Shown here in pieces: positions 27,159 through 38,707 of a DNA stretch of 64,000 bases. Below the pieces are notes generated by a model. That model saw only the letters and a program-made list of their open reading frames with translations, ran no database searches and was not told where the DNA came from. Both the position numbers and the translations under genes were made by a program. Source of the DNA: Gemmatimonas groenlandica (GTDB lineage Bacteria; Gemmatimonadota; Gemmatimonadetes; Gemmatimonadales; Gemmatimonadaceae); NCBI RefSeq assembly GCF_013004105.1, contig NZ_CP053085.1:3968001-4032000 (forward strand), in the 5' to 3' direction. The stretch's first letter is position 1. Every line of letters begins with the position of its first letter.

Positions 27159-29738
27159 CTACTTCTCCGTGTCCAACATCGCCTTGATCTGGTCGCGTGC
27201 GTCCAGCAGGTGGGCGCGGGTGTTCCGATCACCGGCGCGGCCCACGGCCGCTGCCAGCTCACGATCGAGCGTGCGCATCTCGTCCTTGAGCAGCGGGCGG
27301 AAGTCGCGGGTATTCACGACCGCCTGCCCGAACAGGGCGGCCAGCACCGCGTCCTGCGGATTCGCGGCGGGCGGCTTGATCTTGGACGCCATGGCTTCGA
27401 GATAGGTGGCCTGCAGACGACGACGGTACGCGTCGATCGGCTTACCCACGTAGATCTCGCTGAAGAGACCGCGGCGGAGGTCGGTGAGCATCTCACCCAG
27501 CGTGTACACCTGCGCCTTGTTCGTGGCGATCGCTTCGAACTCCACCATGCGCTGCAGCTTGGCGTTCTGCACCAGCGACGACAGGGTGCGGGCCTGGGCA
27601 CCGCTGACGCGGTTGATGTTGCCGTCCGACTCGATCTTGCGGAGGATGTCCGGCTTGATCATCGCGGTCGGCGTGGTGAACACCTCGTCGTTCAGGAAAT
27701 TCATCGCGGCCTTCTGACGGGCACGCGGCACCATCGTCCACACCGGCCCGCTCTGGCTGACGGCCTTTTCCTGTTTGTCGAGGCCACCGACCACTCGCGT
27801 CACGTGCTGCGCTTCGGTCGCCCACTGATTGAGCACGCCGCCATACGTGGCGCGCAGCAGCGAGTAGTCGGCCGTCTTGTCGGTCGTCGAGGCGGGCACG
27901 ACCAGATCCACGATGCGACGCAGGTTCTTGAAGCCGAGGCGCGTGGACTTCACGGCGTCGGCGTCACCGATCGCTTCCGACTGCTCGCCGGGATCGACCT
28001 GCCCGCCGCCGTAGCGGTACCACGGCACGGTGTCCTGCATGCGGGCCCAGCTGTCGAGCGTGGACTTCTCGTCTTCCGGGCGCTTCGCGTTCGCGATGGG
28101 CGTGTAGCCCCATTTCACCGCGAACATGTCGTAGGGGCCGACTTTCGGCACCAGATCGCCGAGCGGGATGCCGTCTTCGGGCTGGGCGACGTAGTTGAAC
28201 CGCGCGTAGTCCATGATCGACGGCGAATGGCCCATCTTCGCGACCCACGTCTTGCTGCGGACCGAGTCGACGGGGTACATCGAGCTACTCTTGAAGTTGT
28301 GCGGGAAGCCGAGGGTGTGGCCGACTTCGTGGGCCGCAACGAACTGCACCAGACGTCCCATCAGTGAATCGGGGAACGGGAACGTCTGCGCGCGCTTGTC
28401 GAGATGGCCCACCTGCGAGAAGTACCACTCGCGCTGGAGGTCCATGATGTTGTGATACATCTGCACGTCGGCATCGATGATCTCGCCGCTGCGCGGATCG
28501 ACCGTGCTCGGTCCCACGGCATTGGCCACCGGAGACGGCAGCCAGCGCACCATCGCGACCGACGCGTCTTCACCGGAGAAGTCGGGATCGGAGGGCACGA
28601 CGCCCGCCACGATACCCTTGGCGAAGCCGGCCTGTTCGAACGCGCCCTGCCACTCCTCGATGCCGGCCTTGATCCACGGCTTGAGCCACTCGGGCGTGGC
28701 CGGGTCGACGTAGTAGGTGATCGGCTTCTTCGGCACGCAAAGATTGCCGACCTTCTGGTCGGAGCACTCGAGACGCCAGCGTGAGATGTACCGGCGCGGC
28801 AGCACGCGCTGCTCGGGCGAACCGAAATCGGTTTTGTTCGGGCCGAAGAACCCGACGCGCGCGTCATTGAAGCGCGGCATCATCGGCACGTCGGGGAGAC
28901 GGACGACCGAGAAGGTGTACGCTTCGGTGGTCGCTTGCGCGCCGCCGAGGTTTAGCCCCGGAATGGCGATGCCACCGGCGCCCTGCGGTGTGAAGGTCTG
29001 CGTCGCGGTGACGTTCACGTTGCGGGTGAAGGCCGCGAACTTCTCGATGTAGGAACGCGTGGGGTCCACGGCGGCACGACGTCCGCCGGCGGCGAACTCC
29101 TGGATGCCTCCGGTGAACATGCGCGTCACTTCGATGACGGCCGCGCTGTCCTTGCCGTACGCTTCCACGTTCAGGGCGGCGATGATCGGATAGAACTCGA
29201 TCAGCGACATCGCGCGACGCGTGGAGAGCATGCTATCGGTCGCGACGTTGTTGTAGTTGATGTCGCGAATGAGGATCCGATTATCGCGGCGCTCGAAGCG
29301 CACCACGCGATCGGGTCCGAGCGTGCCGTTGATGCCGATGCCGGCGGGCGTGCCGGCGAGCACCGTCGTGATCACGAAATCCTTGCCCACTTCGGCGGCC
29401 GGGATCTCGAAATACAGACGCGAGCCAACCTGGTGCACACCGAAGACGCCGGTCTTGGTCTTGGCGCGCGGGGTGATGACCGTGGCGTACGGACGCGGCA
29501 CGGGGTCAGCTCCACCGCCTCCGATACCGGCAAGGCCCGCCGCGAGTCCAGCAGGGAGACCGCCAGCGGGCGGCTGGCCCGGTGTCGGTTGGCCCGGAGT
29601 CGGCTGTCCGGGCGTCGGCGTGCCATTCTGGCCAGCGGGGCGAGCGGCAGGCGTCGGAGCGGGCGTCGGCTTCTTGGCCGGCTGACACGCTGCGAGCGCG
29701 AGCCCTGCCGCGGCCAGCGGGAGAGAGCGAAAGCGCAT
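27159..29738 (-). CDS. zinc-dependent metalloprotease lipoprotein (DUF5117/DUF5118 type), copy 1
   Basis: An 859-residue exported protein. The start at 29738 gives a textbook lipoprotein signal, with LALAAC placing the lipidated Cys at about 18, then a Pro/Ala/Gly-rich linker. The zinc site is HEVGHTLGFPHNF near residue 470, an extended HExxHxxGxxH motif of metzincin-like proteases. The flanking regions correspond to the DUF5117/DUF5118/DUF4953 architecture, common in Gemmatimonadota and Bacteroidota. The predicted job is cleavage of proteins at the cell surface or in the periplasm; the substrate is unknown. It follows the TonB receptor gene on the same strand with a 57-bp gap, so the two may be cotranscribed. 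A close paralogue is at 35882-38459. Confidence 0.9.
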   Translation of the reverse strand: MRFRSLPLAAAGLALAACQPAKKPTPAPTPAARPAGQNGTPTPGQPTPGQPTPGQPPAGGLPAGLAAGLAGIGGGGADPVPRPYATVITPRAKTKTGVFGVHQVGSRLYFEIPAAEVGKDFVITTVLAGTPAGIGINGTLGPDRVVRFERRDNRILIRDINYNNVATDSMLSTRRAMSLIEFYPIIAALNVEAYGKDSAAVIEVTRMFTGGIQEFAAGGRRAAVDPTRSYIEKFAAFTRNVNVTATQTFTPQGAGGIAIPGLNLGGAQATTEAYTFSVVRLPDVPMMPRFNDARVGFFGPNKTDFGSPEQRVLPRRYISRWRLECSDQKVGNLCVPKKPITYYVDPATPEWLKPWIKAGIEEWQGAFEQAGFAKGIVAGVVPSDPDFSGEDASVAMVRWLPSPVANAVGPSTVDPRSGEIIDADVQMYHNIMDLQREWYFSQVGHLDKRAQTFPFPDSLMGRLVQFVAAHEVGHTLGFPHNFKSSSMYPVDSVRSKTWVAKMGHSPSIMDYARFNYVAQPEDGIPLGDLVPKVGPYDMFAVKWGYTPIANAKRPEDEKSTLDSWARMQDTVPWYRYGGGQVDPGEQSEAIGDADAVKSTRLGFKNLRRIVDLVVPASTTDKTADYSLLRATYGGVLNQWATEAQHVTRVVGGLDKQEKAVSQSGPVWTMVPRARQKAAMNFLNDEVFTTPTAMIKPDILRKIESDGNINRVSGAQARTLSSLVQNAKLQRMVEFEAIATNKAQVYTLGEMLTDLRRGLFSEIYVGKPIDAYRRRLQATYLEAMASKIKPPAANPQDAVLAALFGQAVVNTRDFRPLLKDEMRTLDRELAAAVGRAGDRNTRAHLLDARDQIKAMLDTEK

Positions 29739-29795
29739 TGGACCTGATCGGAAAAGGGGGCACCCGCACATTTGACGGGCTCACCTTGAGTCTAG

Positions 29796-31901
29796 CTAAA
29801 AGCCGCGTGAGAGGCCAACGCGCAGCATGCGCGGTTCGACGGGATGGAAATGCACGTCCGCCACGCCCGCTCCTGACTCTCCGGCCAGCCGAGACGCGTA
29901 GAAATACTGCACGTCACTCGACCGGGCATTGCTCGCGTTCAGCATGCTGGCTGTGAGTCGGGTGCCGCGGATGGTACCACCAACACTCAGATTCAGCAGC
30001 GTGGTGGGTGTACCGCGCACACGGTTGTCCTCCGTGAGCGCACTCGATCCGAAGTGACGCACACGAGCGACGGCGTGCACGCCCCGACGCGGCTCCCAGG
30101 TGGCACCGGCCGTGATCACACGTTCGAGTGCACCGGGAATGCGATCGGCATCGCGACCGACATCGGCGAAGCGTGCGCGCGTGAACGACACGTCGGTGTC
30201 GAGACTGAGCGTGCTCACTGGCTTCACGAAGTTCGCCATGGTGACTCCCACGCGATGCGTTCCCCCCAAGGCCTCGGTGGTGCCCGCGTCGCCGACGAAC
30301 AACAACTCGCTATCCAGGTTCAATGCCCAGAGCGATGCGGTCGTACGCAACCATTCGCCACGCGATGTCCGGAGGCCCAATTCTGCCGCGCGAGAACGCA
30401 CCAGCGGGTTGACCGGTGTCGCGGGGTCGCCGCTGACCGGGTCGAAGCGAATGGTGGTGCCGCGTGCGTCGTTGCTGTGAAATCCGAGGCCGCCTCCCAA
30501 ATACAGCTCGGTACCACTGACCGGCGAAAAAACCAAGGATGCCTTCGGACTTCCAATCGTTGCCAGGCGCGTGCCGCTGTTGCGTGAGTCGTTGCTCTGC
30601 ACGTGGAAGTCATACCAATCTTGCCGCACCCCAAGCACGGTGCGCACGCGCGGGCTCCAATGCGACTCGAGACTGGCATACGCTCCGGCGCTCCCTTGGC
30701 GAATATTGTCACGGCGTACCGTGTCACCACGTACGCGCCGATCGCTGCGATACAGTCCCACCGCGATATCGTCGCCGCGCAATTGCACACCGGTGCGGAG
30801 CGCGTGTGCAACACCGGACACGATGCCAACTCGGGTCAACTCGAGGTTCACGCCGCCAATCGTGCGACGATCGGTCTGATTGATCTGATCACCACGTCCT
30901 GCGTTGTCGAGGAAGTAGGTGAAATTCGAAAACAGATTGAGGTCGTGACGCACGACAAACGCATCGATGGCGAGTTTGCCACGCCGCTGTGTGCGCGTCC
31001 ATGACAGCGAGAGGCTGTTGCGCGAGGCGTCGCCGCCGAGCGTGGGGTCGACCTGTCCAAACCGACCGATAGCTCCGGACGCGAACGCGCGCGCCGGAAT
31101 CTGGTCGGTGGCGTTCCATTTATTCGCATAGCCCAAGGCCAACACCGAGATCTCGTCGCGCTGGCCCGTGTACGTCCATCGCGCGAGGCCACTGAACTTC
31201 CCCAGCCGCTGGGGCTGCTCCCACGGTCCATCGTACTGCTTCGCTTCGCCGCCGACGATGAACTGGTTGCGGCGCGTTGATGCGCCGGCGCCCAGTACGG
31301 CACGTCGGAAGCCAAAGGCCCCGGACTCGAGCAAGGCAACCGGCTTGAGGAGTGATCGCGTGAGGTGCAGCGTGGCACCGCCGGCGCTGCCGAAGTCTCC
31401 GAGTTCGGCGTACATCGGCCCGAGCTTGTACTCGAGGTGATCCACGAACTCAGGAATGAGCGGATTCAGATAGGTGTAGCCGTGCCCGTGGCCGTGCGTG
31501 GGAAGATTGAGCGGCATCGACTCGAGACGGGTCTGGAAGTCGGTCCCGTGATCGAGGTTGAATCCGCGCACGACCATTTGATTGGCTTTGCCGTCTCCGC
31601 TGTGCTGCGTGAGGATCATGCCGGGCACGGCTTCGAGAATCTCGCCCTCACGCTGCAGCGGACGCAGGCGAAGGTCGGCGCGACCGATGCGCCCTTGAGA
31701 CGCGCTGGAGGCAATGCCAATCAGGTTATCCGCGCGTCCGCGTACCTGTACGGCGCGCAGTGTGGTTGAGGCGGCCGAGTCAGTCCGCTGCTTCCGCGCG
31801 GCGCTGCTGTCTGTCTGCTGTGCCAAGAGCGGTGCTGCAGCGACGAGTCCGCTGAGCGCGACGGCGAGCAGTCGGCAGGATGCATCGCGAGAATCGCGCA
31901 T
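29796..31901 (-). CDS. TonB-dependent receptor with His/Gly motif
   Basis: A 701-residue outer-membrane receptor. It has a signal peptide ending PLLAQQ, a plug domain (EAVPGMILTQHSGDGKANQ and MVVRGFNLDHGTDFQTRL), then a beta-barrel ending RMLRVGLSRGF with the terminal Phe needed for insertion. The plug contains THGHGHGYTY, a cluster of histidines and glycines that could bind a metal ion. These receptors use TonB and the proton motive force to import scarce ligands. It is divergent from the DUF4331/TPR/HupE/DUF6702 operon, whose HupE-like member suggests a nickel, cobalt or related metal; this is inference. The next gene on this strand is a metalloprotease. Confidence 0.9.
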   Translation of the reverse strand: MRDSRDASCRLLAVALSGLVAAAPLLAQQTDSSAARKQRTDSAASTTLRAVQVRGRADNLIGIASSASQGRIGRADLRLRPLQREGEILEAVPGMILTQHSGDGKANQMVVRGFNLDHGTDFQTRLESMPLNLPTHGHGHGYTYLNPLIPEFVDHLEYKLGPMYAELGDFGSAGGATLHLTRSLLKPVALLESGAFGFRRAVLGAGASTRRNQFIVGGEAKQYDGPWEQPQRLGKFSGLARWTYTGQRDEISVLALGYANKWNATDQIPARAFASGAIGRFGQVDPTLGGDASRNSLSLSWTRTQRRGKLAIDAFVVRHDLNLFSNFTYFLDNAGRGDQINQTDRRTIGGVNLELTRVGIVSGVAHALRTGVQLRGDDIAVGLYRSDRRVRGDTVRRDNIRQGSAGAYASLESHWSPRVRTVLGVRQDWYDFHVQSNDSRNSGTRLATIGSPKASLVFSPVSGTELYLGGGLGFHSNDARGTTIRFDPVSGDPATPVNPLVRSRAAELGLRTSRGEWLRTTASLWALNLDSELLFVGDAGTTEALGGTHRVGVTMANFVKPVSTLSLDTDVSFTRARFADVGRDADRIPGALERVITAGATWEPRRGVHAVARVRHFGSSALTEDNRVRGTPTTLLNLSVGGTIRGTRLTASMLNASNARSSDVQYFYASRLAGESGAGVADVHFHPVEPRMLRVGLSRGF

Positions 31902-32158
31902 ATGGAAGGCAAGGGTAGATGAGAGGTACCAAATGGACCCAAGGTTCGCAAACCCGTTGCAATACGCCGGCCGCGATCCGCTGGATGGTGGAGGGGGGGC
32001 GAGGGGTGCTGGCGCACGATGTGCAATGGTTCATACATCCAAGACGCCGTCAGCGTCGTAGTCCTCGGGTCGGGCAGTCAGGCACTGCACCTCCTCTCCG
32101 TTCTCGCGTCGATCGCGAGCGGCTCGGACTCTACCCTTCCCACACATAGGAATTCTCT
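31902..32158. promoter_or_regulatory. divergent promoter region for the receptor and the DUF4331 operon
   Basis: These 257 bp separate two divergent starts, so both promoters must lie here. A perfect inverted repeat with 6-bp arms, CTCGCG TCGAT CGCGAG, sits at 32103-32119, 40 bases before the operon start. An AGG lies eight bases before the GTG at 32159. I do not see a recognisable riboswitch or a known metal-regulator operator (Zur, Fur or NikR type). Confidence 0.35.
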
Positions 32159-32878
32159 GTGGACATCTCCTTTCTCTCACGACGCGCCTCGCGCGTCGTC
32201 GCGCTGGTCGCCGCCGTCGGCTCGATCGGTGTGGCCGGCGCGGTATACGCATCGGATCACCAGGATACGCCCGAAGTCGAGCTGAATCCGCGCATGGACA
32301 TCAATGATGTGTATGCGTTCCCCGGCTCCTCGGCCGATCGCATTGCGCTCATCATGACCACGTCGAGCCCGATTGCCGGCACGACGGCGTCGTTCGATCC
32401 GGATCTGCTGTACCAGCTCAAGGTCGACAACAGCGGCGACGCGATCGAAGACTTGGTGTTCCAGGTCACGTTCGACAATGGCGTCGGTGCAGCGCAGAAG
32501 TACACGGTGCGTGGCCCCGTTGCCCCGACGATGACCGGCACGAAGTCGTCTCTCGTCACCACCGGCCCGGTGCTCACGGGCACGGTCGGCAGCATCGGCG
32601 GCTCGGCCACCGGCACGCAGGTGTTCACGGGCGTGCGCGCGGATCCGTTCGTGATCGATCTCGAGCAGTTCTTCAACATCATTCCGGACCGTCGTCCGTC
32701 GACCGGCGCGCTGTCCGGCCCGGCCACGCCGACCGCTACGGCATTCCGTACGCCTGGCATCGACTTCCTGCGTCCGTTCAACACGCTCGCGATCGCCATC
32801 GAACTCCCGAAGGCCCTGCTGCAGTCGAACACGGCCGCGACCGCCAACTTCGGCGTCTGGGGCACGATCAGCCGATGA
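32159..32878 (+). CDS. DUF4331-like protein, N-terminal half
   Basis: A 239-residue exported protein. The signal peptide spans about the first 31 residues (VALVAAVGSIGVAGAVYA). The mature start ASDHQDTPEVELNPRMD followed by INDVYAFPG is the hallmark opening of DUF4331 proteins. The family is usually well over 400 residues, but this one ends after the conserved LRPFNTLAIAIELPKALL-like block. The next gene supplies what looks like the missing second half. The GTG start has an AGG eight bases upstream. DUF4331 has no known function. It is the first gene of a coupled five-gene operon divergent from the TonB receptor. Confidence 0.82.
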   Translation: MDISFLSRRASRVVALVAAVGSIGVAGAVYASDHQDTPEVELNPRMDINDVYAFPGSSADRIALIMTTSSPIAGTTASFDPDLLYQLKVDNSGDAIEDLVFQVTFDNGVGAAQKYTVRGPVAPTMTGTKSSLVTTGPVLTGTVGSIGGSATGTQVFTGVRADPFVIDLEQFFNIIPDRRPSTGALSGPATPTATAFRTPGIDFLRPFNTLAIAIELPKALLQSNTAATANFGVWGTISR

Positions 32879-32910
32879 ACGCCAATCTCAACTCTCACGG
32901 AGCCCTGCGC

Positions 32911-33471
32911 ATGCGCCGCTCACTCGCTACTCGTCTGTTCACCGTCGCGCTTGCCCTTCCGTTGTTCGCTGCGTGCAGCGATGACGACAACGGGGGCACC
33001 ATCACTGACCCAGTCGTCACCACCCCGCGGGTATACTCGCAGGTCGAACGCCTCGGCAATCCGCTGGTGAGCGAAGTGTTCTTCGCCAAGCGCGATCACG
33101 GCTTGCACAACACGACTGCGCCGGCCACCGACATCACGAACGGCTTCCGCACCAAGATCAAGGCGTTCACCGATGCCTTCAATCGTGGCAACACGATCGG
33201 CACGACGCTGGGTGCGGTGCTGGTTCCCGACATGCTCATGGTGTATCCGAATCGTGCGGGCACGACCTCGGGTTGGCTGAGCTGGGCGCTGGCCAGTGGC
33301 TACGGCGGCCGCAATCTGAAGGACGATGTGGTCGATGCCGGTCTCACGGCGACATTCGGCAACCTGCTCGACCCCGCTGCCACGGTATTGCCCGGCCTGA
33401 CGTCGGACAACATCAGCACGTCGGTGCGCACGTACGGCACGGCGTTCCCGTATCTCGAAGCGGCGCGATGA
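32911..33471 (+). CDS. DUF4331-like lipoprotein, C-terminal half
   Basis: A 186-residue lipoprotein candidate with the signal MRRSLATRLFTVALALPLF and AAC, then an acidic SDDDNGG that is typical after a lipidated Cys. The ATG at 32911 has a strong GGAG eight bases upstream; an ATG at 32875 overlaps the previous stop and would add 12 residues. The mature part begins YSQVERLGNPLVSEVFF and has LKDDVVDAGLTATFG and a final FPYLEAAR. These match my recollection of the second half of DUF4331. The split from the first half, each with its own signal, suggests two interacting envelope proteins. Its stop overlaps the TPR gene start. Confidence 0.75.
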   Translation: MRRSLATRLFTVALALPLFAACSDDDNGGTITDPVVTTPRVYSQVERLGNPLVSEVFFAKRDHGLHNTTAPATDITNGFRTKIKAFTDAFNRGNTIGTTLGAVLVPDMLMVYPNRAGTTSGWLSWALASGYGGRNLKDDVVDAGLTATFGNLLDPAATVLPGLTSDNISTSVRTYGTAFPYLEAAR

Positions 33472-34745
33472 ATCCCCGGCTGATGATGTGGCCGGCGGTG
33501 ATTGGTCTCACGATCGCCGGTCTTGGCGGAGTGGCCTACCACCAGGCGATGGCCGTAGATCTTACGGTGCCATCGGCAGTGGGCACCGCGGCCACATCAT
33601 CAGCAGTCGCCTCGCGCGAGTCAAAGCGTGAGGCGGAGCGGGCGCAACGCGATGTGCAGATCCGCGTTTGGAATGAAGCGCTGGCGGCTGATCCCGTCAG
33701 CGCGGTCTCAATGGGACAACTCGCCGCGCTGCACCTGCAACGCGCCCGGGAAAGTGGTGTGTTTGATGAATATCTCACGTCCGAAGCGTTGGCGCGTCGC
33801 TCCTTGTCGACGCGCACACGACGCAATGCGGCTACGGCGGTCACGCTGACGAATAGTTTGCTGGCGCAACATCGCTTTACCGACGCGATGGACGTGGCAC
33901 GTACACTGGTGTCGTGGGAACCCGAGCAGCCGGCCTATCGGGCCTTGCTCGGCGAAGTCGCCATGGAACTCGGTGATGATTCCACAGCCGCGACCATGTT
34001 CAACTCGGTATGGACGGCCCGCTCCGGACTGTCGATCGCTCCGCGCGTGGCGCGATGGCTGGAACTGACGAATCACGTCGAGAAGGCACGCCGCGTGTTG
34101 AACGCGGCGCGCACGGAGGCATTGGCCCGTCGCGATCTGAGTACCGAGACGAAGGCCTGGTTTCATCTGCGCGTCGGAGATCTCGAGCTGCGTGCGGGTC
34201 GTGCCCGGGATGCCGCCACGGCATACCGCGCCGGACTCGCGCTCGATGACCAGGATCCCCGCCTGCTGGCAGCCATGGCGCGACTCGCGGAGCAGCAAGA
34301 GCAGCCCGCGGCGGTCATCGCCTGGGGGGAACGTGCCATCGCCGTGCGCATGGACCCGGCCACCCTCGGACTGCTGTCGAAGGCCTACACGACGCTCGGC
34401 GACCACGCGAAGGGGCGCGAGTATGCGCAAACGCTGGCGGTGGTCGCATCGGCCCAACAGGGGCCGTATGATCGCGCGTGGAGTCTGTACCTGCTGGATC
34501 AGCGGGAGCAGGTCAACACCGTGCTGGAAAAGGCGAAGGCCGAGCTGGAGACGCGACGCGATGTGTACGGGTATGACCTGACGGCGTGGGCGCTGTATCG
34601 GGCCGGCCGCTTCAGCGAGGCGCGTGAGATGATGGCGCAGGCGATGCGGCTGAACACGCCGGATCCGCTGCTGCAGCATCACGCCGCGATGATCGCCGCC
34701 GCTCCAACGGTCGTGTCGGCGAGCCGCGAGACGGCGGGCCGATAG
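33468..34745 (+). CDS. TPR-repeat protein, membrane anchored or exported
   Basis: A 425-residue protein starting with a hydrophobic segment (MMWPAVIGLTIAGLGGVAY) that is a signal anchor or uncleaved signal. From about residue 100 it is a series of tetratricopeptide-like helical pairs (for example AYRALLGEVAMELGDDSTAA, GDLELRAGRARDAATAYRAG and TAWALYRAGRFSEAREMM). TPRs mediate protein-protein contacts, so it may organise the other envelope proteins of this operon. The start ATG overlaps the stop of the DUF4331-like lipoprotein (ATGA), and the HupE-like gene begins directly after its stop with no gap. Confidence 0.85.
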   Translation: MNPRLMMWPAVIGLTIAGLGGVAYHQAMAVDLTVPSAVGTAATSSAVASRESKREAERAQRDVQIRVWNEALAADPVSAVSMGQLAALHLQRARESGVFDEYLTSEALARRSLSTRTRRNAATAVTLTNSLLAQHRFTDAMDVARTLVSWEPEQPAYRALLGEVAMELGDDSTAATMFNSVWTARSGLSIAPRVARWLELTNHVEKARRVLNAARTEALARRDLSTETKAWFHLRVGDLELRAGRARDAATAYRAGLALDDQDPRLLAAMARLAEQQEQPAAVIAWGERAIAVRMDPATLGLLSKAYTTLGDHAKGREYAQTLAVVASAQQGPYDRAWSLYLLDQREQVNTVLEKAKAELETRRDVYGYDLTAWALYRAGRFSEAREMMAQAMRLNTPDPLLQHHAAMIAAAPTVVSASRETAGR

Positions 34746-35345
34746 ATGCTCTCTGAACTCGTCAGCTTCGCGGCTCTCGGCTTTCAGCACATCGTCGCCA
34801 TCGACGCGTTCGATCACATCCTGTTTCTGCTGGTACTGGCGGCGATCTATCGTGGTCGTGACTGGCGCCAAGTGCTCTGGGTGATCAGCGCATTCACGAT
34901 TGGGCACTCGATCACGCTGGCGCTGGCGGTCACGAACGTGCTGGTACTTCCGCCGCGCCTCGTCGAGTTCCTGATACCGCTGACCATCGTCGCCACTGGC
35001 ATCGAGAATATCGTGCAGCGCTCCCGCGCCGCCCAGGGCACGTTCTCACGGCATCGCGTGCTGTTCGCCGCGGGGTTCGGCCTGGTGCACGGCGCCGGCT
35101 TTGCGGGATACCTGCGCAGTCTGTTTCTCGACTCGATCGCGGTGCCGCTGGTGGGATTCAACCTCGGCATCGAGGCTGGGCAAATCGTCGTGCTCGCCGC
35201 GACGGCGGTGCTCTTTCGCCTCGTTGACGGCGGATTGTCGGTCGCTCTGCCGTCGCGCGATCCATTTCCGCTGCGCCTCACTGCAGTGTCACTGGGCGTC
35301 ACGGTCATCGCCACGGGCTGGGCGTGGCAGCGGTTTCCGCAATGA
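34746..35345 (+). CDS. HupE/UreJ-like integral membrane protein
   Basis: A 199-residue protein with about six transmembrane helices. Conserved features are GFQHIVAIDAFDHILFLL, TIGHSITLALAV (containing GHS) and GFGLVHGAGFAGYL, all carrying polar His and Asp residues within helices. This is the HupE/UreJ type, linked elsewhere to uptake of nickel or cobalt for hydrogenase or urease. Neither enzyme is encoded nearby, so the metal is uncertain. The start follows the TPR stop directly and the stop overlaps the next gene (ATGA). The likely role is to move a metal ion across the inner membrane, with the TonB receptor handling the outer membrane. Confidence 0.85.
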   Translation: MLSELVSFAALGFQHIVAIDAFDHILFLLVLAAIYRGRDWRQVLWVISAFTIGHSITLALAVTNVLVLPPRLVEFLIPLTIVATGIENIVQRSRAAQGTFSRHRVLFAAGFGLVHGAGFAGYLRSLFLDSIAVPLVGFNLGIEAGQIVVLAATAVLFRLVDGGLSVALPSRDPFPLRLTAVSLGVTVIATGWAWQRFPQ

Positions 35346-35845
35346 AACGCGTGGCCGTGGTGCTCCTGATGAGCCTCGCGCTGGCTTCGCCGGCGCGGGC
35401 GCATGCCATTCATACCACGCATACCACCGTGACGGCCGACGCGCAGGGCTATACGCTCACGGTGCGAGCCTTCGCTGACGACTTGTCGGCGTCGGTGGCG
35501 CGTTTCAGCGGGCGCACGCCGCCGGCTGATTCGTCAGTGCGGGTGCCCGAGTTGGTCGCCTATGCGACGGCGCGATTGACGCCGACGACCGCGGCGGGCA
35601 AACCGCTGATCATGCAGTCGTGCGGCGTGAAGCGAATGCAGGATGCGTACGTCCTGTGTTTCCGCCTTGTCACGGCGACACGCACCGCGCCGCTACGGCT
35701 GGGCAATCAGATGCTGTCGGAGCTGCACGCCGATCAGGTCAATATTGTGCAATGCGACGTGGCGGGCAGTCGCCGCACCAATCTGTTCACGCGCGGTCGC
35801 GCGGCAACGGCCATTGTAGAACGTGGGGTGTGCGCGGCGTCATAA
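35342..35845 (+). CDS. DUF6702-like exported protein
   Basis: A 167-residue protein with a signal peptide ending ASPARAHA. The mature part opens HAIHTTHTTVTADAQGYTL, rich in His near the N-terminus, then DLSASVARFSG and QSCGVKRMQDAYVLCFR with a Cys pair. This fits DUF6702, small periplasmic proteins of unknown function that are found next to HupE/UreJ-like genes. The N-terminal His cluster could bind metal. It is the last gene of the operon, coupled by an ATGA overlap, and ends 37 bp before the convergent metalloprotease gene. Confidence 0.8.
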   Translation: MKRVAVVLLMSLALASPARAHAIHTTHTTVTADAQGYTLTVRAFADDLSASVARFSGRTPPADSSVRVPELVAYATARLTPTTAAGKPLIMQSCGVKRMQDAYVLCFRLVTATRTAPLRLGNQMLSELHADQVNIVQCDVAGSRRTNLFTRGRAATAIVERGVCAAS

Positions 35846-35881: not shown

Positions 35882-38459
35882 TTAGTTTTTCGGGTCGAGC
35901 ATCTTGGCGATCTGATCGCGGGCATCTTCGAGATGCGCCTTGCTCATGCGATCGCTGGTCTTGGCGATGGCTGCAGCGAGATCGGCGTCGAGTGCCCGCA
36001 TCTCACTCTTTAGGATCGGACGGAAATCCGCCGTGGTGACCGGAGCCGGTGCACCACGGGCGCCAGCTGGCGCCTGCTGAGCCGCCGACGCGGCGGGCGG
36101 GTTGATCTTGCTCGCCATCGCTTCGAGGTACACGCGCTGCAGACGACGACGGAAGGCGTCGATCGGTGCGCCCGTTTCGATTTCCTTCCACAGGCCGCGA
36201 CGGAGATCGGTGAGCATGTCGGCCACCGGATACACTTCACTCTTCGACTTGGCCATCGCTTCCAGCTCGACCATGCGAGCGAGGCGGTCGTTGCTGACCA
36301 CCGACGCCAGCGAACGCGCTTGTGCGTTGCCGACACGGCTCAAGCTGCCGTTCGACTCGATCTTGCGCGTGATGTTCTCGTCGAGCAGCCACGTGGGCGT
36401 GGTGTACGCGTTGTCGAGCAGGAACTGGAGCGCGTCCTTCTGGCGCTTGGGCTCCACGTTCTGCCAGACGACGCCCTTCTGACCCACCAGCTTTTCCTGC
36501 TTGTACTCCGAGCCGATGATGCGGGCCACGTGGCCCATCTCGGTGGCCCACTGACCAACGGTGCGGCCGTAGATCTCTTCGAGGTCGTCGTACGTGCTGC
36601 CGTCCTTCCACGCCGTGGCCGACTCCAAAATGGCCATCGTGCGCTTGAGGTTCTTCACGCCGAGCGTCGTGGCTTTCACGGCATCGGCATCACCGACCGC
36701 TTCCGACTGCTCACCCGGATCTGCACCCTGCGCGCCGCCGTCGTTGGCGAACCGGTACCAGGGGATCGTGTCCTGCATCTTCGACCACTTGTCGAGCGTG
36801 GCCTTCTCCGCTTCCGGCGTCTTGGCGTTCGGAATCGGCGAGTAGCCCCACATCACCGCGTACTTGTCGTACGGACCGACCTTCGGGATCAGGTCGTCGA
36901 GCGCGATCCCGTCTTCCGGCTGCGCCACGTAGTTGAAGCGTGAGTAGTCCATCAGCGTGGGCGTGTGGCCATTCTTGGCGACCCACGTCTTCGAGCGCAC
37001 CGAGTCCAGCGGATACATCGAGCTGGCCTTGAAGTTGTGCGGGAAGCCGAGCGTGTGTCCCACTTCGTGCGCCGTCACGTACTCGAGCAAACGGCCGGCG
37101 AGTGAGTCGGGGAACGGGAACTTCTGCGCGCGCTTGTCGAGATGGCCGACCTGCGTGAAGTACCACGAGCGACCGAGGTTCATGACGTTGAGATACGTCT
37201 GCACGTCGGCGTCGATGATCTCACCGGTGCGCGGATCCTTGAGCGACGGACCGACGGCGTTTTCGGTGGCCGACGGGAGCCAGCGCACCATGGCGACGGT
37301 GGCGTCTTCGCCGGAGAAGTCGGGATCGTTGGCCGGTGCTTCGGCGGCGATGATGCCCTTGTAGAAGCCGGCGGCTTCGAAGGCCACCTGCCAGTCTTCG
37401 ATGCCCTTCTTGATCCACGGCTTCAACCACGCCGGCGTAGCGGGGTCGAGGTAATACGTGATCGGCTTCTTGGGGACGCAGAGATTGCCGACCTTCTTGT
37501 CGGAGCACTCAAGGCGCCAGCGCGAGATGTATCGCTTGGTTTCCACGCGCTGTGTGGCGCCGGAGAAGTCACGCTGATTCACGCCGAAGTAGCCCACGCG
37601 CTCGTCGAGCAGGCGCGGCTGCATCGGCACGTCGGGCAGCTTGGCGATCGAGAAGGTGTACTTCTCGGTCGTTGGTGCCGTCGCGGCGGCACCTGCACCC
37701 GGCGGGCCACCTGCACCGGGCGCTCCGCCCTGCGGCGTGAAGCTCTGTACGGCGGTGACGTTCACGTTGCGCGAATACGCGGCGAAGCGATCGATGTACG
37801 AGCGCGCGGCATCGACCGTGGCGCGACGACCGAGTGCGGTGTATTCGGCCACGCCGCCGGTGAACATGCGCGTGACTTCAACGACGGCCGAGCTGTCGGG
37901 GCCGTACGCTTCGATGTTGAGCGCGGCGAGAATCTTGGTGACGCCGATCAACTCGGCGGCCATGCGCTGCGACGACGCGGTGTCGGCGATGATGTCGCGG
38001 TAATCGGCTTCGCGCACGAAGATGCGATTGTCGCGACGCTCGAAGCGCACGAGGTTGTTGCCGCCCTGCGTGCCACGAATGCCGATCTCGTCGGGCGTGC
38101 CGGCGAGCGTGGTGACGATGACGTAATCCTTGCCGAGCTCAGCGCGCGGGATCTCGAAGTAGAGACGGCTGCCGACGGAGTGGACCTTGAACACGCCACT
38201 CTTGGTGACGGCGCGCGGCGTGATGACGGTGCCGTAGGGGCGCGGCTGGGGGTCCTGCGCGGCGTTGGCGCCGCCCTGGCCGCCGGGCTGACCACCGCCC
38301 TGGGCTCCGCCCTGATTCGGGGCGCCGGCGGGACGACCGCCCGGTGCTGCGGTGGGGGGGGCGGCGTCGGCGCGGGGGGGGGGGCGCGGGGGTCGGCTTC
38401 GGGGCGCAGGCGCCGAGCACGAGGCCGGCGGCGGCGATCGACAGTGAAGCGTGTCGCAT
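35882..38459 (-). CDS. zinc-dependent metalloprotease lipoprotein, copy 2, frameshifted at a poly-G tract
   Basis: A close paralogue of the 27159-29738 protease; blocks such as VGNLCVPKKPITYY are shared exactly. The zinc site is HEVGHTLGFPHNF. The lipoprotein signal starts at 38459 (AAAGLVLGAC, then APKPTPAPPPP), but as written it is out of frame with the protease body by one base. The mismatch falls at an 11-G run at 38374-38384. Removing one G joins the frames through a Gly/Gln/Pro linker and gives 858 residues, almost the same as copy 1. Without correction the longest frame starts at 38194 and lacks the signal. The gene is therefore either phase-variable or affected by a sequencing error. 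Confidence 0.85.
38374..38384. repeat. 11-G homopolymer inside the metalloprotease signal/linker region
   Basis: Eleven G on the plus strand (C on the coding strand). A further 8-G run is at 38354-38361 and a 5-G run at 38388-38392. A change of one base here switches the downstream protease between in frame and out of frame. In the given sequence it is out of frame. Confidence 0.8.
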
Positions 38460-38586
38460 GCAGTTCAGTTCTCTGGGAGGGGACGTTGCCCGGGGGCGCG
38501 TTGTGGCGCACCGGCAGACGCAGTGTAACGCGCGGTGGTGGCGGGGTGCTGACGGGTGGTGGTCCCGGAACTGAAAACTGGCAACT

Positions 38587-38707
38587 GCCAACCCCTTAGG
38601 GAGCAGGGAGGAGGGTGTCAGGGAGGAGGGGGGGGGGGTGAGCCGCGTGCCGTTGCTACTTCCTCCCTCCTCCTGAGACCCTCCTCCCTGCCCCCTAAGC
38701 TGTTGGC
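38587..38707. repeat. long imperfect hairpin downstream of the alpha/beta hydrolase gene
   Basis: Arms of 36 bp, about 38587-38622 and 38672-38707, match at about 32 positions. They are made of GGGAGCAGGGAGGAGGG-type words, and the similarity extends a little past each end. A run of 11 or more G is in the loop. It begins two bases after the hydrolase stop on the minus strand and lies upstream of the metalloprotease gene, so it may end the SPFH operon transcript. Confidence 0.65.

Follow-up and report, generated by a model that had tools for sequence, protein, structure and literature searches.

Outer-membrane receptors that depend on TonB are among the closest described counterparts of the system considered here: a Novosphingobium receptor with NiCoT and CobW neighbors is already predicted to be a cobalt carrier (PMC7689651), and Bll6948 and Daro_3944 have been named as predicted TonB-dependent nickel/cobalt receptors (PMC11247825). 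HupE/UreJ proteins are known from the literature as nickel or cobalt carriers, and the HupE of Synechocystis carries cobalt (PMC7689651). DUF6702 proteins have been described as His1 "metal sequesterases", the member from Pseudomonas aeruginosa binding nickel at 5.6 pM and cobalt and copper at ∼3 nM, and the anglerase domains that are fused to HupE_UreJ_2 permeases bind copper and nickel, with those tested preferring copper (PMC12537917). Counterparts of these proteins are combined in a locus of Gemmatimonas groenlandica, at positions 29796–35845 of a 64,000-nucleotide stretch of contig NZ_CP053085.1 (the window), where a TonB receptor gene is divergent from an operon encoding the two parts of a DUF4331 protein, a tetratricopeptide repeat (TPR) protein, a HupE_UreJ_2 permease, and a DUF6702 protein. 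We infer, with a probability of roughly 60%, that this locus is a TonB-dependent nickel/cobalt acquisition system, a reading that takes in the metal, the direction (uptake), and the order of transfer.

The window receptor belongs to the same family as the nikR-, hoxN-, and cob-linked members of the predicted TonB nickel/cobalt receptors, as judged by motif and tree, and the receptor–hoxN–cobW–cobN order of Sphingopyxis agrees with the published cluster description (PMC7689651). The main difference lies in the partners, which are nikR, hoxN, and hyp genes there and DUF4331, TPR, HupE, and DUF6702 genes here; Bll6948 and Daro_3944 are known to us by citation only. Similar to the DUF6702 sequesterase and anglerase–HupE/UreJ_2 systems, the locus has a DUF6702 protein with His1 and a HupE_UreJ_2 permease, but it encodes the His1 protein in a gene of its own and adds a TonB receptor, a split DUF4331, and a TPR protein; DUF4331 goes unmentioned in the main text of that report (PMC12537917). 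TonB-dependent nickel uptake across the outer membrane is also common to Helicobacter FrpB4/NikH (PMC7689651), which is likened by description and not by sequence. Plasmid operons of Nostoc, Streptomyces, and Pseudoalteromonas resemble the locus in carrying DUF4331, TPR, and then a nickel/cobalt permease (NicO or HupE). They differ in that DUF4331 is a single full-length gene, in that the Streptomyces and Pseudoalteromonas permeases bear an exported N-terminal part of their own, unlike the window HupE, and in that no receptor of the window family is listed nearby. We know of no association of FrpB4/NikH with DUF4331. The receptor, the permease, and DUF6702 are of known or predicted kinds; the DUF4331 and TPR parts are undescribed. 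A preliminary description of the locus had called the roles of DUF4331, TPR, and DUF6702 alike undescribed, which does not apply to DUF6702, given its published nickel binding (PMC12537917), and still stands for DUF4331 and TPR, for which no role was found in the literature searched; that literature yielded no mention of DUF4331.

The host is a soil-type bacterium whose genome is a single contig of 5.18 Mb (99.3% complete) and whose closest named relatives are Gemmatimonadaceae. The features of the locus are as follows.

29796–31901, minus strand: TonB receptor, 701 aa (Pfam barrel and plug; sole copy in the genome; tree; 61% identity to a hyp-adjoining congener receptor, where compared)
31488–31604, minus strand: receptor family motif QHxGxGKAxQ...DHGTD...(S/T)HxHGxGY, residues 100–138 (alignments)
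31902–32158, no strand: 257-bp spacer between the receptor gene and the divergent operon, presumed promoters (sequence; no Rfam match)
32159–32878, plus strand: DUF4331 N-half (D43N), predicted signal peptide, Ig-like β-sandwich model (Pfam, AlphaFold2)
32252–32260, plus strand: S-D-H, residues 32–34, predicted mature N terminus after cleavage between VYA and SDH, X-X-His of the amino-terminal copper- and nickel-binding (ATCUN) type ((−3,−1) rule, alignment)
32875–33471, plus strand: DUF4331 C-half (D43C), predicted lipoprotein, Cys34 in LFAAC (codon 32974–32976) (Pfam; lipobox)
33468–34745, plus strand: TPR protein, 425 aa, predicted signal peptide (Pfam TPR)
34746–35345, plus strand: HupE_UreJ_2 (PF13795) inner-membrane permease, 199 aa (Pfam; alignment)
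35342–35845, plus strand: DUF6702 (PF20420), signal peptide with predicted cleavage between ARA and HAIH, predicted His1 and His4 (codons 35402–35404 and 35411–35413) (Pfam)

The open reading frames (ORFs) and families given in the preliminary description were confirmed, with Pfam matches above cut-offs, and the coupling that it proposed for the plus-strand genes is borne out in the sequence: D43N/D43C and D43C/TPR overlap in ATGA, and TPR and HupE are joined by a TAG-ATG abutment. DUF6702 was called from GTG 35324 (35324–35845, plus strand); its true start is probably ATG 35342, which overlaps the HupE stop and gives a further ATGA overlap. The five plus-strand genes are probably co-expressed. 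An Rfam scan of the 64-kb window, including the 257-bp intergenic region, gave zero matches.

The receptor family and the permeases beside DUF4331

The receptor matches the TonB plug (PF07715, 27.6 bits) and barrel (PF00593, 62.9 bits) profiles, both above cut-off. The THGHGHGY cluster pointed out earlier is real and occupies residues 135–142, inside a family-wide motif that is conserved across 32 receptors of Gemmatimonadota and Bacteroidota; H136 and H138 are invariant in the same 32. The motif histidines are H100, H118, H136, and H138, two proteobacterial members having Asn in place of H136, and one family member has S instead of T in DHGTD. The window receptor and the proteobacterial members linked to nikR, hoxN, or cob have H100, D117, H118, D121, H138, H475, and D478 in common, and these residues are absent from two unrelated receptors. 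In the tree, 40 receptor rows lie on one side of a branch with support of 97/94, opposite three long-branched outgroups, and the window receptor groups with hyp-linked congener receptors in a 10-row set (100/100).

The gene neighbors of the family members point to nickel and cobalt. Five genomes of the same genus have hypE-hypD next to the receptor gene; HypC, HypD, and HypE were checked by NCBIfam in one of these and assigned by clustering in the other four. A DUF4331 match is present in none of the five. In one congener locus (L217, 7945–15099), the receptor, hypE, hypD, and hypC form an operon that is accompanied by genes for an NHL-repeat protein and a NifU-Rieske fusion. Plasmid-borne members were read in 14 annotated proteobacterial genera, in loci hand-picked from ranked lists and not random, some records being without a gene table; in 11 of these genera, nikR, hoxN, hyp/hydrogenase, or cob genes lie in the vicinity, mostly within 6 kb. 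By genus, the neighbors are hoxN together with hydrogenase genes (Cupriavidus, Bradyrhizobium), hoxN (Novosphingobium), hoxN-cobW-cobN (Sphingopyxis), nikR-hoxN (Paraburkholderia), nikR (Methylomagnum, Polymorphobacter, Methylocystis, a Comamonadaceae strain, and, along with hyp genes, Afipia), and cob genes (Methylorubrum). No nikR, hoxN, hyp, hydrogenase, or cob gene is listed near the receptor in Indioceanicola, Methylobacterium XJLW, and Sphingobium. By its sequence, the window receptor belongs to a nickel/cobalt-associated TonB receptor family and would transport nickel or cobalt.

Two other arrangements were seen around receptors of this family. Gemmatimonadota and a Hymenobacter plasmid carry DUF3500 genes together with a HupE permease and a same-family receptor (L209, 3438–13998; L163, 4136–13663), a grouping that is a second undescribed arrangement. 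In several loci (L137, 12575–12970; L134, 12552–12905; L109, 15467–16384), the gene just upstream of the receptor encodes a small His-rich exported protein, which in L109 is without a Pfam match.

The permease of the window matches PF13795 with 148.3 bits (cut-off 24.5), and H15, D23, H24, H54, and H115 are invariant in 12 aligned operon copies. The permease found beside DUF4331 varies in kind. It is of the HupE_UreJ_2 type in Gemmatimonadota, Bacteroidota, and Pseudoalteromonas and of the NicO type in Oscillatoriales, Nostoc, and Streptomyces; Rhizobium has a NiCoT (HoxN) permease and no TPR gene at that place. The TPR gene usually sits between DUF4331 and the permease; the DUF4331 locus of Miltoncostaea has a TPR gene and no listed permease. 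Since the permease type is exchanged while the metal class stays the same, DUF4331 would serve nickel/cobalt handling, and this exchange and the receptor family are the strongest arguments for such a role. The target metal is most likely nickel/cobalt because of the nikR, hoxN, hydrogenase, hyp, and cob neighbors of the receptor and the exchange of HupE, NicO, and HoxN beside DUF4331. The conserved, probably co-expressed metal-handling system proposed in the preliminary description is supported and is narrowed by gene context to this most likely pair of metals.

The DUF6702 protein matches PF20420 with 55.7 bits (cut-off 24). After predicted cleavage, H-x-[ILV]-H is found in 19 of 21 operon copies, the called start of the other two lying too far upstream for the mature terminus to show, and the window protein has a predicted His1 as in the metal sequesterase family. 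A second HupE and DUF6702 cluster of the host (L067, 7235–10481) has a 695-aa ORF in between and recalls the published DUF6702–M1 peptidase neighborhood.

DUF4331 as one protein in two genes

The two DUF4331 ORFs, earlier regarded as copies, match different parts of the PF14224 profile and are halves of one protein: the N-half matches positions 1–236 of 421 (110.5 bits) and the C-half positions 251–420 (47.6 bits), and coverage of the whole profile is reached by the two only jointly. Two paralogues are ruled out by these spans, the halves being separate genes in most relatives. A sequencing frameshift is likewise ruled out, as the C-half has a start, a signal, and a lipobox of its own and the two-gene form is conserved, being present in all 50 of the Gemmatimonadota and Bacteroidota loci with both flanks (described below). 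The N-half carries a predicted export signal, and the C-half carries the lipobox LFAAC, as do aligned relatives. DUF4331 was encountered in five phyla (Gemmatimonadota, Bacteroidota, Cyanobacteriota, Actinomycetota, and Pseudomonadota).

AlphaFold2 models the N-half confidently as a β-sandwich (predicted local distance difference test, pLDDT, 89.8). Foldseek gave no match for this model at E ≤ 0.001, and VIA-align gave Z ∼6 to antibody domains, a common Ig-like arrangement only, so that no function is readable from the fold. The full-length DUF4331 model is weak, chiefly in the C-half (mean pLDDT 61). Searches by sequence gave no known structure for the DUF4331 N-half profile, the receptor, or HupE.

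Cleavage that leaves His at mature residue 3 agrees with the (−3,−1) rule in 72 distinct exported N-halves of DUF4331, and the same rule also permits His at position 2 in 37 of the 72; with a looser pattern, His is at predicted mature residue 3 in 76 of 80 exported N-halves. H34, the lone His of the window N-half protein (239 aa), is the sole invariant His in a 64-row DUF4331 alignment. Full-length exported forms mostly have Ala before the predicted cleavage site and SSH or SDH after it. Leaderless forms (n = 4; Rhizobium, Mycobacteroides, Methylocystis, and one in the host) start with MSHH or MSNH, which gives X-X-His again once Met is removed. The X-X-His terminus is also kept in copies that have the D43N-D43C-TPR core only, e.g., L062 and L064. 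An N-terminal X-X-His is the ATCUN motif, which binds Cu(II) and Ni(II). The conserved His gives a predicted ATCUN-type nickel/copper site at the mature N terminus of DUF4331; its conservation may also have a structural cause. The conserved X-X-His terminus is a new observation.

The host has two further DUF4331 loci: L064 (6663–9607) holds a split DUF4331 pair and TPR, with HupE and DUF6702 not found nearby, and L065 (7423–8487) holds a leaderless single DUF4331 ORF that starts with MSHH.

With the nickel/cobalt permease link and the conserved X-X-His, the role of DUF4331 becomes approachable through one protein (H34), and this large unexplained family would gain a first well-supported, testable role, in nickel/cobalt handling. 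A more specific proposal, put forward tentatively, is that DUF4331 proteins are widespread nickelophores of protein nature, secreted or at the surface, that keep nickel/cobalt bound by the free X-X-His N terminus and pass it to dedicated receptors or permeases, the split form being docked at the TonB receptor in Gemmatimonadota and Bacteroidota. Such capture of metal by proteins would be previously undescribed.

Conservation of the gene set and proposed route

GTDB genomes scanned for the DUF4331 N-half alone gave 423 confirmed matches, of which the best 80 were taken, so that the sample leans to close relatives; the loci came from Gemmatimonadota, Bacteroidota, and one cyanobacterium. Fifty Gemmatimonadota and Bacteroidota loci fetched by the N-half had both flanks. 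In these, the C-half and TPR are nearby in 50/50, HupE in 22/50, and a window-type TonB receptor in 28/50, and DUF6702 is nearby in 17 of the 23 from Gemmatimonadota, where the order D43N-D43C-TPR-HupE-DUF6702 is seen repeatedly. In comparison, the whole host genome has five HupE_UreJ_2, two DUF6702, and one receptor of the window type. The co-location of the gene set exceeds chance, and co-occurrence of the families across genomes, whose absence had been named beforehand as refuting the proposed system, was found. Of the host and 99 relatives taken together (100 genomes), 25 have DUF4331, mostly as two parts, and 11 of the 20 genomes with the receptor also have DUF4331, which is above chance (P ∼0.001, shared ancestry uncorrected). 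In Adhaeribacter, the receptor gene and a DUF4331-TPR pair are arranged divergently.

Other neighbors recur as well. Neighbor clustering of 81 loci placed an extracytoplasmic function (ECF) sigma factor nearby in 32, an RskA-type anti-sigma factor in 28, and a fasciclin protein in 10. SigK-like ECF sigma factors and RskA are found beside DUF4331 operons in three phyla (L081–L156, e.g., L147, 8476–9791; L224, 3588–4804). The window operon has no sigma/RskA pair nearby.

In the proposed route, the exported N-half (mature X-D-His) and the lipidated C-half would form a pair at the outer membrane, possibly scaffolded by the TPR protein, and this pair would bind Ni(II) or Co(II) that is in short supply, either free or in chelated form. 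The metal would then pass the outer membrane via the His/Asp-motif TonB receptor, periplasmic DUF6702 (His1-x-x-His4) would accept it and offer it to HupE, and HupE would carry it into the cytoplasm. The signal cleavage sites, heterodimer, surface location, and transfer order, like the metal and the direction of uptake, are what we infer from the sequences. If true, this route would supply nickel/cobalt uptake with an extracellular or surface step that has been missing, the inner-membrane permeases being known and capture at the outer membrane poorly described.

Metal identity, alternatives, and adjacent genes

Several observations weigh against nickel/cobalt acquisition. In the preliminary description, no hydrogenase or urease was seen at the locus, and none was found by a whole-genome search for NiFe-hydrogenase and urease alpha. 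LarC likewise gave no match in the 99.3% complete genome, and a search for Ni-SOD was uninformative, as controls gave no match either. The host has the B12-dependent enzyme MetH and a methylmalonyl-CoA-mutase-type B12 domain, and its sole CobN-family match is BchH. No nickel/cobalt or B12 riboswitch was found in the window or in 15 further loci, and riboswitch control was dropped. DUF4331 genes in Methylocystis, Aliiroseovarius, and Mycobacteroides have no listed metal gene nearby, the D43N-D43C-TPR core is without nearby HupE, DUF6702, or window-type receptor in 11 of the 50 loci, and among the 11 genomes that share receptor and DUF4331, only 3 have the two next to each other. In addition, ATCUN sites bind copper as well as they bind nickel, or better. 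The same applies to some permease-linked His1 domains (PMC12537917).

This last point leads to copper, for which the same anatomy would serve, DUF4331 (ATCUN) and DUF6702 (His1) binding Cu(II) and the system importing or buffering it. The tight binding of Cu(II) by ATCUN sites is general knowledge, no nickel enzyme was found in the host, and copper is both the preference of the tested permease-linked anglerase domains and a nanomolar ligand of DUF6702 (PMC12537917). However, the neighbors of the receptor family are nickel/cobalt regulators, permeases, and enzymes, DUF4331 pairs with NicO and HoxN, and no copper gene was recognized among the identified recurrent neighbor clusters. We consider a copper system unlikely.

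The loci with the core only suggest instead that D43N-D43C-TPR could serve the surface or envelope in general, as a module controlled by SigK/RskA, with the metal genes as frequent but optional passengers. Consistent with this, an ECF sigma factor is nearby in 22, RskA in 23, and fasciclin in 6 of the 50 two-sided loci, and the same sigma/anti-sigma pair lies beside DUF4331-TPR-HupE in Pseudoalteromonas. Such a module would not account for the repeated pairing with different nickel/cobalt permease families in several phyla, or for the X-X-His terminus being kept in the core-only copies L062 and L064, and is quite improbable. Export or detoxification, with excess nickel/cobalt sequestered in the envelope and not taken up, is very unlikely: in a Sphingobium nickel transcriptome, otherwise of use only as HupE/TonB background of a general kind, a HupE/UreJ gene is strongly induced by excess nickel (PMC5557971), the receptor of Methylocystis has a CzcA-type gene in its vicinity, and no nickel enzyme was found in the host, but TonB receptors import, and relatives of the receptor adjoin genes for NikR and for hydrogenase maturation, contexts that speak of metal demand. 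Nickel/cobalt acquisition remains the preferred reading of the locus.

The BchH noted above is a magnesium chelatase (L184, 1438–5367, minus strand), and the host probably makes bacteriochlorophyll. Paralogous Met-zincin-type genes lie on either side of the receptor-operon unit (27159–29771 and 35882–38194, both minus strand), the first with DUF4953/5117/5118. The second has a lipoprotein leader (within 38139–38591) that is out of frame with its body, beside an 11-C run, which may reflect an assembly error, phase variation, or a pseudogene.

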